Source: Bdellovibrio sp. GT3 (GTDB lineage: Bacteria > Bdellovibrionota > Bdellovibrionia > Bdellovibrionales > Bdellovibrionaceae). Taken from it: 64,000 bases of DNA. The translations under genes and the position numbers were made by a program. The stretch's first letter is position 1; each line of letters starts with the position of its first letter. The DNA lies in the NCBI RefSeq assembly GCF_037996765.1, contig NZ_JBBNAD010000004.1, positions 186,001 through 250,000 on the forward strand, written 5' to 3'. Below are positions 16,194 to 20,962 of this stretch, piece after piece. Below the pieces are notes generated by a model. It was not told the DNA's origin and ran no database searches. It was given only the letters and a program-made list of their open reading frames with translations.

Positions 16194-16847
16194 ATGGGAT
16201 TAGTAGTAACGATCGATGGACCTGCGGCCTCTGGTAAATCTTCAGTGAGCCGTGAACTTGCCCACCGCCTTGGCTGGAAGTGGGTTTCTACAGGTGCCTT
16301 CTATCGTGGCTTGGCCTATGCCGCTATTCAATTGAATGTGGACCTTGATGACGTGACGGCTTTGGCTGAATTGACTCATAATCCAGTTTGGAACGTGAGC
16401 CTGGAAGCGGATCGCACGCGCGTGTATTTCAAAAATCAAGATGTAACAGACGCGATTGCTCACGAAACCGTTGGTAACTTCGCTTCCAAAGTCAGTCATT
16501 ACCCTGAAGTTCGTAAAGCTTTGTTGGATGCGCAACGCAATTGCAGCAATGGTGAACATGGACTTGTGGCGGAAGGCCGTGATTGCGGAACAGTTGTATT
16601 CCCAACAGCTGAAGCCAAAGTTTATCTGACAGCATCCTCTGAACACAGAGCTGCTCGTCGTGCGACAGAGTTGGGTCTTGATCACGGTGACATGGTAAAA
16701 GCGCAAAAACAACGCGATCACCAGGACTCCACTCGTAAAGCGGCACCTATGTCAGTTCCGACAGGCGCTTTGGAACTTGATTCCACTGAATTGGACCTGC
16801 AACAGGTCGTCGACAAAGTCGAAGCTTTCGTAAAATCTAAAATCTAA
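16194..16847 (+). CDS. cmk: Cytidylate kinase (CMP/dCMP kinase)
   Basis: Phosphorylates CMP and dCMP to the diphosphates. I chose ATG 16194 because GGAG at 16185-16188 lies 5 bases upstream; GTG 16188 would overlap it. The 217-residue product has the P-loop TIDGPAASGKSS, the nucleotide-monophosphate segment WVSTGAFYRGLA, and EGRDCGTVVFP followed by LTASSEHRAARRA, all typical of Cmk. It lies 41 bases after hisC. Its stop codon falls inside the left end of the 99-bp palindrome. Confidence 0.95.
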   Translation: MGLVVTIDGPAASGKSSVSRELAHRLGWKWVSTGAFYRGLAYAAIQLNVDLDDVTALAELTHNPVWNVSLEADRTRVYFKNQDVTDAIAHETVGNFASKVSHYPEVRKALLDAQRNCSNGEHGLVAEGRDCGTVVFPTAEAKVYLTASSEHRAARRATELGLDHGDMVKAQKQRDHQDSTRKAAPMSVPTGALELDSTELDLQQVVDKVEAFVKSKI

Positions 16848-16942
16848 CGCAGGCAAATTGCTTTCTCCTGCGTTGCTTCTCGTCGGCATACAGGAGTATG
16901 CCTTCTCGTCGCGCCTGGGATAAAACAATTTTCCAGCGTTAG
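16844..16942. repeat. 99-bp imperfect palindrome between convergent genes
   Basis: The outer ends read CTAACGC(A/T)GG on both strands, followed by matched AAATTG-type and CCTGCG/CCAGG-type blocks, and the centre is a perfect GGCATAC-AGGA-GTATGCC hairpin (16885-16902). A TTCTCGTCG block occurs in direct orientation on both sides of the centre. Each end carries the stop codon of a flanking gene (cmk on plus, the 605-residue gene on minus). It resembles a REP/BIME-like or miniature repeat and could act as a bidirectional terminator. Confidence 0.7.
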
Positions 16943-18756
16943 TTATTTTGAGATTGCATGCGCTGCTTGGTTTCAAGCAGCAGGGCCAGTCTTAGGTTCG
17001 CGCGATAGATATCCTCGAAGCGGCTTTGTGGGCTTTCTTGAATATCGCGCAAGTTTTGTTCTTCCATTTTAAAATAGGCATCCATGGCCAGACGAAGTGA
17101 TTCTTTCATTTCTGGATCCTTGGTATTCAATGTTTCTTCAAAAATTCCCAGCTGGCCGGTTTTTGATTCCTTCTGGAATTCCTCGCGGATTTCAGACTCC
17201 CAAAGTTTGAAGTAGTCCAGCGTTTCATCATCCCAGTACTGCACATCCTTGCCGTAACGAGCCTCAAGATAACCGCGTTGAGCTGCAGAGAAACCGATGA
17301 AAGACCAATAAACCCGCGTCTCCATCATGTTGATATAAAGATTGCGCCACAGGTGGTTTTTGTTTTCCGATGATTTTGCCACGCGAACCTGCAGAAGTTC
17401 CTGAACCAGAGGTTGCTGCGACTGGTTTTCTGCTCCGATCGTCTTTAGTGAGCCCAGATAGAACATGACCTGGCTTGGTGACGGATCAATGATTCCAGGG
17501 ATGTCGGTTTGTGCCTGTCCTTTCAAAGCTTTTACCACCATCGAAGCACAATCCAACGCCAGCGTGTAATTGCGATAGCGTTTCCCGGTTTGCATTTCCA
17601 AGTAGCGTTTCAATTTATTTTTTTGTGCCTGACCGAGCTTCAATCGCGCCGTCTGCATAACTCGCTCGGTTTTATCCAAGCCTGTCCATGCAATACTTTT
17701 TTGCAAAATAGTCTGCTCAGGTGTTTGACCTTGAGTCAGTCCTTCCTGAATTACATCGGCAAGCACATATTCGCGCGTGGTTTTAACCGTCATATGTGTT
17801 TGACCATAAGAATAGACCAAGCCGTCCATTTCAATGGCCATGTGTGGGAAGGGAACTGTTTCGTTATAGATTCGCACTTCGTCAGAGGCCAATTGGAACT
17901 TGGAATCATTCAGGAATTTTCCGGATTCAACCGTGGCGCTTGGGTCATTGAGTTGTTCGTACCAGTTGTAAGCTTCAATTAAGGAAACTGCGATGATCGC
18001 ATTCAATGCATAATCAGCGACACGACGGATTTTAACCCAAGTGCGATGCTCATTTAAAAAGTCCTGACGCTCCTTAAAGATATTCTCGGCCTTGTATTTT
18101 TTTAGAGTCGTTACTTCTTCGGCAGTGGGACGGTATTTGGGATCGCGCCAAAGTTTTTTAAAGATCTTTTGCGTTGGAGTCAGACCACCCGGCAAGTCAA
18201 TACCATGAGGGATCAGTAGCATGTATTTCAAAGGGCCATTGTACAGGGATTGCGTCAGGCGCAGGCCTTTTTCTTTCGCAGTCGGTGCCGTGAAGAAGTC
18301 CGGGGTCCCGCCACGAGTTGCAGAGTATTGGGCATATTGTTGCAAAAGACGAATCGGAGCTTCCATGGCAGCTTGATAGTAAAGCACTCCTTCGAACATT
18401 TTCATTTTGCGCGGGGAGGAAGTCATGAACGCAAGTTCATCAGTCGTCAAACGCTGTTTGTTTGAGCCGATACCGGAAATCATTTTCTTGGTGATCTCAG
18501 TAAAACGTTTGTCAGCAATCGGGGAGGAATTGTCCTTAGCCTCGGCCGCAAAAAGCTTATTATAAGTATACAGCGCTGACAGATGTTGAAGTGCCGTGGT
18601 GTTCTTCATGACAGCCAGCTTTTTATTCAAATAACTGTCGTAAGTTTCTGTGACCGTTTTTTCTGAAGAGAAAACCGATGAGCACGTCAGGGCCTGAGCG
18701 TGGGCCGCCCAAGGTACCAGTGCTATCATCATGATTTTAAGCAATAAGTGCTTCAT
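16939..18756 (-). CDS. Large secreted protein with a possible permuted NlpC/P60-like (DUF4105-type) core
   Basis: A 605-residue protein with a signal peptide ending AAHAQA. Most of it is helical and charged. Around residues ~300-415 there is a His-first, Cys-later arrangement: FPHMAIEMDGLVYSYGQTH, then RYRNYTLALDCASMVVKAL, like circularly permuted NlpC/P60 or DUF4105 proteases. Whether it is active is not known. It follows the 373-residue secreted protein after a strong terminator, so it is probably only partly co-expressed with it. ATG 18756 follows GAAGAGAGAAT. No confident function. Confidence 0.65.
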   Translation of the reverse strand: MKHLLLKIMMIALVPWAAHAQALTCSSVFSSEKTVTETYDSYLNKKLAVMKNTTALQHLSALYTYNKLFAAEAKDNSSPIADKRFTEITKKMISGIGSNKQRLTTDELAFMTSSPRKMKMFEGVLYYQAAMEAPIRLLQQYAQYSATRGGTPDFFTAPTAKEKGLRLTQSLYNGPLKYMLLIPHGIDLPGGLTPTQKIFKKLWRDPKYRPTAEEVTTLKKYKAENIFKERQDFLNEHRTWVKIRRVADYALNAIIAVSLIEAYNWYEQLNDPSATVESGKFLNDSKFQLASDEVRIYNETVPFPHMAIEMDGLVYSYGQTHMTVKTTREYVLADVIQEGLTQGQTPEQTILQKSIAWTGLDKTERVMQTARLKLGQAQKNKLKRYLEMQTGKRYRNYTLALDCASMVVKALKGQAQTDIPGIIDPSPSQVMFYLGSLKTIGAENQSQQPLVQELLQVRVAKSSENKNHLWRNLYINMMETRVYWSFIGFSAAQRGYLEARYGKDVQYWDDETLDYFKLWESEIREEFQKESKTGQLGIFEETLNTKDPEMKESLRLAMDAYFKMEEQNLRDIQESPQSRFEDIYRANLRLALLLETKQRMQSQNN

Positions 18757-18769
18757 ATTCTCTCTTCAC

Positions 18770-18803
18770 AAAAAACTGGAGGAGCCCCGAGAGGCTCCTC
18801 CAG
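18770..18803 (-). terminator. Strong terminator after the 373-residue secreted protein gene
   Basis: An 11-bp perfect stem, CTGGAGGAGCC (18776-18786) with GGCTCCTCCAG (18793-18803), is followed on the minus strand by a T run (18770-18775). Confidence 0.9.
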
Positions 18804-18808
18804 AGTTA

Positions 18809-19930
18809 TTACTTCTTAAGATTGAAACCGATCAAAGCCAATTTCGCGGAAACAGAACCCAGCATGCGCTCGATTTCTGTTCTTACTTGAGGGTCTCTAA
18901 CGTTGTTTGAAGTCAACTGAGACTCAAGCAAAGCCGCCAATTGCAAAGCCATTTCTGTATTTTGGATTGCCAACTCTTTCGTGTTCGCATCAACTTGCTC
19001 GGAAGACGTCAAACCTTTGATAAGGTTGCGTACTTTCAATGCCGCTGTCGTCGCGTTGCGATCAACGATGTTTTTATCGGCCATCAACTTGATCACATCA
19101 AGATTGTACAGGCTGCTGTCTTCGCTGAATTTGTTTGCAACCGCCTGGCGGATGATGTCGTCATAGATAGCGATCTTAAGTTGTGATTGCTGGTCCGCAT
19201 TCAAGCTGAAGATTTCAGAAAGACCGCGTACTTCCGCGTCGATGCGGGAGCGGATTACTTTGTCCTGGCCTAGGATGCTGCGCACTTGCGACATGGACAT
19301 AGCTTCCTTGGAGTCATTCATCATAAAGAAGAATGAACCTGCCGCACTGGCTGAAGCAGATGAAGTACCTGAAGAAAGCATTGTGTGCTTGTTGATAAGC
19401 AATTTAATAACCGGCTCGATGATGCGCTCATAAGTAAACTCCATGGATTTGCCCGAGCTTTCCACGGATTGTTCGAGTACTTTATCAAGGCCGGTAGCGA
19501 TCGAGAATTTATCAAGACCTTCAATAGAAAGTTTACCCATGGTTTGAATAGAGCGCAGAACCATCGTCAATGGCACCAATACGAATTCAACTTTTTTAAC
19601 GGATTCCACTCCTAGATATCCAGCACCGATGGTCACGCTGGAAGTTGGAACTCCACCCAGATAAGCGGTACGCAAGTAAGTGTACTTTTTAGCTACAGCA
19701 GCATCAACAGCAACCAATTTGCCAGCGCTGCTTTCAACTTTAGTTGTCGCGATGATCAAAGATAGCAAAGTCGCTGTGGATTGATCCAATGCGATTTCTG
19801 AGGCTGTTGATTTTTTTACGGCTACGCTGCCAGTGATGGAAGCGTCTTCCATTGGGCTGCGTGCAGAAGCAAATGCGGGTGCAACCAAAGTCATTGCCGT
19901 CAATACAGATACTGCCTTTTTAGATTTCAT
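18809..19930 (-). CDS. Secreted 373-residue protein of unknown function
   Basis: The start is set at ATG 19930, which opens the signal peptide MKSKKAVSVL ending FASA; the frame runs open to 20032 but that part encodes no signal. The mature protein is rich in Ser, Ala, Leu and Lys and looks largely helical, with no Cys. I do not recognise a family. It has a structured leader that can pair with the GAGAGAGA ribosome binding site (19934-19998), and a strong terminator, so it seems a highly controlled single gene. Confidence 0.7.
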   Translation of the reverse strand: MKSKKAVSVLTAMTLVAPAFASARSPMEDASITGSVAVKKSTASEIALDQSTATLLSLIIATTKVESSAGKLVAVDAAVAKKYTYLRTAYLGGVPTSSVTIGAGYLGVESVKKVEFVLVPLTMVLRSIQTMGKLSIEGLDKFSIATGLDKVLEQSVESSGKSMEFTYERIIEPVIKLLINKHTMLSSGTSSASASAAGSFFFMMNDSKEAMSMSQVRSILGQDKVIRSRIDAEVRGLSEIFSLNADQQSQLKIAIYDDIIRQAVANKFSEDSSLYNLDVIKLMADKNIVDRNATTAALKVRNLIKGLTSSEQVDANTKELAIQNTEMALQLAALLESQLTSNNVRDPQVRTEIERMLGSVSAKLALIGFNLKK

Positions 19931-19933
19931 GGG

Positions 19934-19998
19934 TCTCTCTCTTTCGTAAATCAGCGTCTCGTTTTGAGACGCGTTGTTAATTGGTTTCACGAGAGAGA
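19934..19998 (-). promoter_or_regulatory. Leader structure that can sequester the ribosome binding site
   Basis: On the minus-strand message, UCUCUCUC (19991-19998) can pair with the GAGAGAGA ribosome binding site (19934-19941), enclosing a perfect GCGUCUC/GAGACGC hairpin (19954-19960 with 19966-19972). This arrangement suggests translational control. It is a sequence-based inference; no folding calculation was run. Confidence 0.5.
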
Positions 19999-20125
19999 TT
20001 GAATGCAAATGAGTTTCCAGTGTGGGATGCAATGGATAGTGTATAAACCCAAAAGGGGTGTTTAAGGCCCGCGTAGTTCCCTAAAAGTGGCACTATGGTT
20101 ATCTAATTGTAACCGAGCGAAATGA

Positions 20126-20962
20126 CTAGAATTTGAGGGACTGTTTGATTCCTTCAATGACCAGCTTTTCTGCCGGATTCCTGCCGAATTCAGGGCGATA
20201 AACCAGACAGATTTCATCGGAGTAGGAGGGGAGATCTGCAACGGGTTTCAGTTTGAATCCGGATGCCGAGACTGCGCGTGAAGGAATAACTCCCAAACCC
20301 AGGTTTTCATTTACCATGCTGCAGATCAATTCCAAGCTGTCCGTTTGAATGACCTTACCTGGCTTGCTTTTCCATTTTTTAAAGATGGACTGAGTCTGAA
20401 ATAGTTCCGTATTTGCAATGACGGTATCTTTGTCGACAGCGCCTTTACCCTGCCAGACAGTAACAGTGTCGGTTGCGAGCTTTTGAATTACCAGGTCTGG
20501 ATTGGGGACAGGATTGATAACGATACCAACATCGATGGTGCCACGTTGAATTCCCAGTTGAATGTTTCTGGATAGGTCATGTCGCAGCTCCACGCGATAG
20601 TCCGGAGCTGCAGAGCGAATATGGCGCAGAGCTTTCGGGATCGTATACTGAGCCACCGTAGTGTGACAGCCGATGGTGATGCTTCGACCCGCAAAAAGGG
20701 CTTTGTCACTATCGGGGAATTCAAGTTCAGTCAGAGTGCGCAAAAGGATTTGAGCTTTGCCCAGGAAGACTCGTCCACTGGCGGTCAGCTCAATGCCGGT
20801 TCGCGAACGATAAAACAATATGGTTCCGGCGTCAGTCTCCAGACGTTTCAGACTTTCTGATAAAGCCGGCTGGCTGATTTCCAGTTTGGTGGATGCCTCC
20901 ACAATTGTTCTGCAACTGCTGGTGGCTACAAAGTTCTCGATATCGCGGATTCTGTATTTCAT
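20126..20962 (-). CDS. LysR-family transcriptional regulator
   Basis: A 278-residue protein. The N-terminal winged helix-turn-helix is clear: IENFVATSSCRTIVEASTKL, then SQPALSESLKRLE with the recognition helix. The remainder is a periplasmic-binding-like effector domain (~90-278). LysR proteins usually act as tetramers and often control a divergent neighbour; here that is the secreted protein at 21052, across an AT-rich 89-base gap. The inducer is unknown. Start ATG 20962. Confidence 0.9.
   Translation of the reverse strand: MKYRIRDIENFVATSSCRTIVEASTKLEISQPALSESLKRLETDAGTILFYRSRTGIELTASGRVFLGKAQILLRTLTELEFPDSDKALFAGRSITIGCHTTVAQYTIPKALRHIRSAAPDYRVELRHDLSRNIQLGIQRGTIDVGIVINPVPNPDLVIQKLATDTVTVWQGKGAVDKDTVIANTELFQTQSIFKKWKSKPGKVIQTDSLELICSMVNENLGLGVIPSRAVSASGFKLKPVADLPSYSDEICLVYRPEFGRNPAEKLVIEGIKQSLKF

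Follow-up and report, generated by a model that had tools for sequence, protein, structure and literature searches.

A stable leader predicted to close the ribosome binding site of a probably secreted accessory protein in Bdellovibrio

The window analysed here, a 64,000-nucleotide stretch of the Bdellovibrio sp. GT3 genome, carries on its minus strand a gene encoding a 373-residue protein (P0001, 18809..19930) whose leader can pair with its own ribosome binding site. The question raised by this locus was whether the pairing hides that site and, if so, whether it acts like a translational switch or an RNA thermometer, as the original prediction had suggested. The 373-residue reading frame was correct. 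The first 23 residues of P0001 resembled a signal peptide by eye, and the protein is probably secreted. It matched no Pfam family at E-values up to 1, and its one NCBIfam match lay far below the cut-off (19 bits compared to 432). The adjacent gene on the same strand (16939..18756), which encodes 605 residues, also had a signal-peptide-like N-terminus by eye and no Pfam family. Single-sequence structure predictions for both proteins were useless (pLDDT of 37.6 for P0001 and 35.0 for the 605-residue protein).

On the message strand, the 5' arm UCUCUCUC (19998-19991) was complementary to GAGAGAGA (19941-19934), which spans a weak, GAG-type ribosome binding site and is separated only by CCC from the AUG at 19930. 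The two outer tracts enclose a perfect 7-bp inner hairpin, GCGUCUC-AAAAC-GAGACGC (19954..19972), which folded alone to -12.1 kcal/mol; the three elements all lie within the last 70 nt upstream of the AUG. The 8-bp outer stem around this hairpin was confirmed at the coordinates originally given for it, although the outer helix also has an overlooked second register, in which UCUCU-C-UCGUGAA and UUUACGA-A-AGAGA form 12 pairs around one mismatch. This second register was the minimum free energy (MFE) structure when 121 nt were folded; in a 72-nt fold the 8-bp register (-23.3 kcal/mol) and a near form of the second register (-23.1 kcal/mol) were almost equal in energy. The ribosome binding site was paired in the most stable fold of the leader and was closed in all of the 12 best suboptimal folds. 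Taken with the 121-nt fold and the opening costs given below, these results supported, as a prediction, the proposal that the leader hides the site. The site itself was weak, since its best duplex with the anti-Shine-Dalgarno (SD) sequence had an energy of -4.6 kcal/mol compared to a mean of -6.0 kcal/mol over 385 gene starts, and 118 of these starts, P0001 included, had a site that was as weak or weaker.

These 385 starts came from 464 kb of the same genome, made up of the window and 400 kb from a single contig (C4), and were called by a crude script that found 392 genes, of which seven were dropped because they had short upstream sequence. The script placed the P0001 start wrongly at 19564, which was reset manually to 19930, and other starts in the sample may also be wrong. 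When the region from -75 to +3 was folded, the P0001 leader ranked sixth of the 385 starts by z-score (-5.25, 60 shuffles each). By plain MFE it ranked 30th; for the 121-nt stretch the z-score was -3.03 and one of 200 shuffles folded equally well. Opening positions -17 to -4 would cost 12.0 kcal/mol, compared to a mean of 7.0 kcal/mol, which placed P0001 at rank 32. The closure was therefore not extreme, with 31 other starts as tight or tighter, and when the AUG was included (-17 to +3) P0001 fell to rank 58, so that 57 other starts were closed as tightly or more; both ranks count against a brake on translation. The nested motif, a perfect hairpin of at least 7 bp within 8-bp arms, had one occurrence in the real window, and 11 of 60 shuffled windows contained it one or more times. 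The motif alone is therefore not rare in 64 kb; it is its location on a start site that is notable. Also against a brake, the purine-rich P0001 site found an arm of at least 8 bp in the upstream regions of 5 of 384 other genes. The pairing in the P0001 leader is real and unusual, but not unique.

Arms of at least 8 bp that pair with the ribosome binding site were found at 13 of the 385 starts (16 in a second script with a different arm definition). In swapped controls, in which each ribosome binding site was given the upstream sequence of another gene, the mean was 5.6 and the maximum 12, and none of 200 replicates reached 13. For arms of at least 9 bp the excess was weak (three starts compared to 1.3 in the swaps, a number reached by 29 of 200 replicates). 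Upstream terminators and wrong starts could explain part of the excess of arms of at least 8 bp in this sample (L074-L093 and the window). Several other sampled starts had a site-closing arm around an inner hairpin. At one of them, a gene that we take to be pfpI/DJ-1-like (L075, 14701-15306, minus strand), the GGAGGAAG ribosome binding site pairs with the upstream CUUCCUCC around such a hairpin. Relatives of this gene were present in 17 other genomes of the genus, and 15 of their leaders were read (L111 and L113 excluded). The outer stem, of 8 to 11 bp, was kept in three species with 91-93% protein identity (L100, L101 and L102) and was absent from the other 12 leaders, at least two of which (L107 and L116) use different sequences to close the site. 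Over 15 pairs in the four close sequences, 96.6% of cells could pair and one pair was changed on both sides, a level of covariation that was equalled by 133 of 500 shuffles; the retention of this stem with one double change is suggestive only. For a gene that is presumably proB-like, the stem of its own-genome leader did not appear in any of three further leaders that were read (L121 excluded). Two of the proB-like loci, L118 and L120 (genomes G018 and G016), had a near-perfect long hairpin immediately before the start (-52.3 and -45.8 kcal/mol in 88 nt), which was absent from the GT3 leader.

Homologues of P0001 were few and distant. A single-sequence search at an E-value of 0.001 gave no match in any of the 65 further genomes from its family; among 290 relatives at the same threshold, the only matches besides P0001 itself were in G140 (29% identity, E = 4.4e-31) and G199 (E = 3.9e-4). 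The only other genome of the genus found to carry a homologue was G012, in which a very diverged copy was located by synteny. Profile support was modest, with hhalign probabilities of 74 for G012 and 84 for G199. A four-row profile (A1) recovered the same four loci, and no others, from 368 genomes of the phylum; all four sequences sit inside this profile and their scores are not an independent test. No match was found among phage records, nor when P0001 was used as the query against genome contigs; a two-row profile found one locus in these contigs, titled 'MAG: Oligoflexia bacterium' (L098), the leader of which reads identically to that of the G140 locus. The P0001-type stem was absent from the leaders of the G012, G140 and G199 homologues, and closer homologues were not found. 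Against a brake, the G140 and G012 leaders were open (3.9 and 3.1 kcal/mol, respectively), with an upstream complement to the ribosome binding site of 7 nt in G140 and only 4 nt in G012. The G199 leader was closed (12.2 kcal/mol) by a different stem. Judged from these leaders, the P0001 stem is not conserved at this distance.

The gene and its partner lie in a segment (16848..20135) that was absent from a close relative, G018, where 49 nt separate the matching flanks. In that genome a LysR-type gene and a gene that we take to be cmk-like are 49 nt apart, compared to 3288 nt in the window; G013 and G016, in which the LysR-type DNA was unmatched as well, also lacked the module. From this comparison of flanks, the leader, P0001 and the partner gene are accessory DNA, by gain here or by loss in the relatives, so that the leader either arrived with the module or arose within it. 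The gene order of the window was found again in G012, where a relative of the 605-residue gene (31% identity) begins 8 nt beyond the P0001 relative; the G140 homologue had no neighbour of this type among the open reading frames listed. A palindromic element of about 100 nt (16840-16945, z = -4.66) was observed at the left edge of the segment; it was single-copy in its own genome, and ten diverged matches, either full or partial, were found in G013, G015, G016, G018 and G023.

The possibility that the dyad in the leader came from a repeat or a mobile element was considered and rejected. The inner hairpin occurred once in its own genome with up to two mismatches, and a 226-nt leader query returned three matches there at E-values up to 10, including itself and one at 2.45, none of them a significant second match. 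In the other 23 genomes of the genus the best match to this query had an E-value of 0.005 (G023). The hairpin core GTCTCAAAACGAGAC gave 18 matches with up to two mismatches across the genus, that of the window included, in 13 of 24 genomes (five of the matches being in G023), compared to three for a reversed control. By eye, some of these loci seemed to lie in the coding regions of related genes (L008 with L011, and L020 with L022) and others resembled terminators (L006 and L009). The recurrence was therefore read as no shared element, although this does not account for the enrichment.

Within the module, the 52-nt gap between P0001 and the 605-residue gene contained a strong hairpin resembling an intrinsic terminator, with a 12-bp stem followed by T6 (18770..18803, minus strand). 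The strong terminator that had been attributed to P0001 is thus present, but since it separates the two genes of the module it does not follow that P0001 expression is tightly set by it; it may instead lower expression of the second gene. Upstream, about 195 nt separate the P0001 start from the end of the LysR-type gene (20126), which lies on the same strand. No sigma-70-like site was found at the scan threshold between 18700 and 20200. For the FliA-type pattern TTAAG-N16-CCGATA (as given in an excerpt of PMC3627812), no site with three or fewer mismatches was found in the leader, and 140 matches were found across the window compared to 125 expected. Among the 12 best weak promoter-like pairs, the top score was just 7 out of 12, and five of them would give a transcript that starts downstream of the 5' arm, a further point against a brake.

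Folding at 14 temperatures bore directly on the suggestion of an RNA thermometer, in which the leader would open on warming. The ribosome binding site does lie within a stem, and the modelled AUG opened gradually, with a mean unpaired probability of 0.03 at 4°C, 0.18 at 37°C and 0.56 at 60°C. Against this, GAGAGAGA stayed 76-83% paired (mean unpaired probability of 0.17-0.24) throughout 4-60°C in the energy model, and the thermometer was unsupported; we regard it as scarcely credible. A true translational switch, in which a protein, small RNA or metabolite opens the closed stem, is unlikely, yet a good deal less so. The closed state was stable, the ribosome binding site was weak and the genome has other SD-closing leaders, one of them, the pfpI-like leader, kept in three relatives. 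For the RNA without ligand or protein, the best fold that left the SD sequence free was about 8 kcal/mol worse than the best closed fold (-15.2 compared to -23.3 kcal/mol); given this gap and the closed best folds, no two-state switch was visible in the RNA alone. Nor was there an Rfam match between 18700 and 20300 at E-values up to 1, in agreement with the original statement that no known family matches; nor did any family match the window at gathering thresholds, and no known aptamer was found. With no open fold of comparable energy, no Rfam match and no close homologue found in which the pairing could be followed, a switch was not demonstrated. The P0001 leader was untreated in the excerpts of the Bdellovibrio publications among the matches listed for transcription start sites, RNA-seq, riboswitches and RNA thermometers.

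The main competitor to a constant brake is that the pairing is a by-product: a CU repeat would pair fortuitously with a purine-rich ribosome binding site, and no effect on translation would have been selected. The number of starts with an arm of at least 8 bp, the appearance of the nested motif in shuffled windows and the lack of the stem in distant homologues are consistent with this explanation; the z-score rank of the whole leader, the pairs beyond the CU repeat that are added by the second register and the lower number of arms in the swapped controls argue against it, and we consider it possible but clearly less probable than a brake. A role of the stem and its inner hairpin chiefly in shielding the 5' end of the transcript, or as an RNase III substrate, is improbable, because the stem extends into the ribosome binding site, which a pure stabiliser does not need, even though such a stable inner hairpin within a long stem would suit either role. 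More doubtful still is that the dyad acts at the DNA level, as the operator of a regulator. The long inverted repeat before the start codon, with a LysR-type gene upstream on the same strand, could be read in this way, but the hairpin core occurs only once in the genome when up to two mismatches are allowed, the leader lacks a significant second match there, and neither gene of the inserted segment belongs to a Pfam family by which a regulator could be recognised.

A constant brake was ranked as the most likely reading of the leader, with a by-product possible and a thermometer least likely; that a fixed stem lowers translation of P0001, the first gene of the accessory two-gene module, has about an even chance of being correct. 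In its favour are a pairing stronger than in shuffles, the z-score rank and opening cost of the leader, the closed best folds, the over-representation of SD-closing arms of at least 8 bp in this genome sample and the pfpI-like leader kept in three close species. Under a constant brake, transcription would start upstream of 19998 and the leader would fold into a long imperfect stem around the tight inner hairpin, covering the weak GAG-type site. Because the 5' arm is made earlier, the site would be closed once it is transcribed, and translation of P0001 would be kept low. Relief of the brake, if there is any, would have to come from a protein, from a small RNA or from translating ribosomes. A real brake would show how expression of an accessory module, probably a secreted one, is kept low. 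We also entertain, as a long shot, a broader proposal in which the genus has a loose class of ribosome-site-closing leaders that are opened by some factor, perhaps tied to the life cycle, with P0001 as one target and its partner gene set lower still by the terminator within the module. For genus-wide translational control, the excess of arms in this genome and the pfpI-like leader are better targets than the P0001 locus.

Three known types of leader provide a comparison. Translational riboswitches have a leader that is able to close the ribosome binding site, as the P0001 leader can, but the latter had no aptamer family that was found and no competing open fold. In RNA thermometers of the ROSE and fourU types the ribosome binding site is held in a stem, which is also true of P0001; in contrast, the modelled P0001 ribosome-site stem showed no melting range within 4-60°C, and no Rfam family matched. 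Static stem-loops that sequester the SD sequence are known in 5' leaders, for example at the MS2 coat start. As in such stem-loops, the P0001 ribosome binding site and an upstream complement form a stem beside the AUG; the P0001 leader differs in that its loop contains a further hairpin of 7 bp, and its effect on translation is a predicted one.
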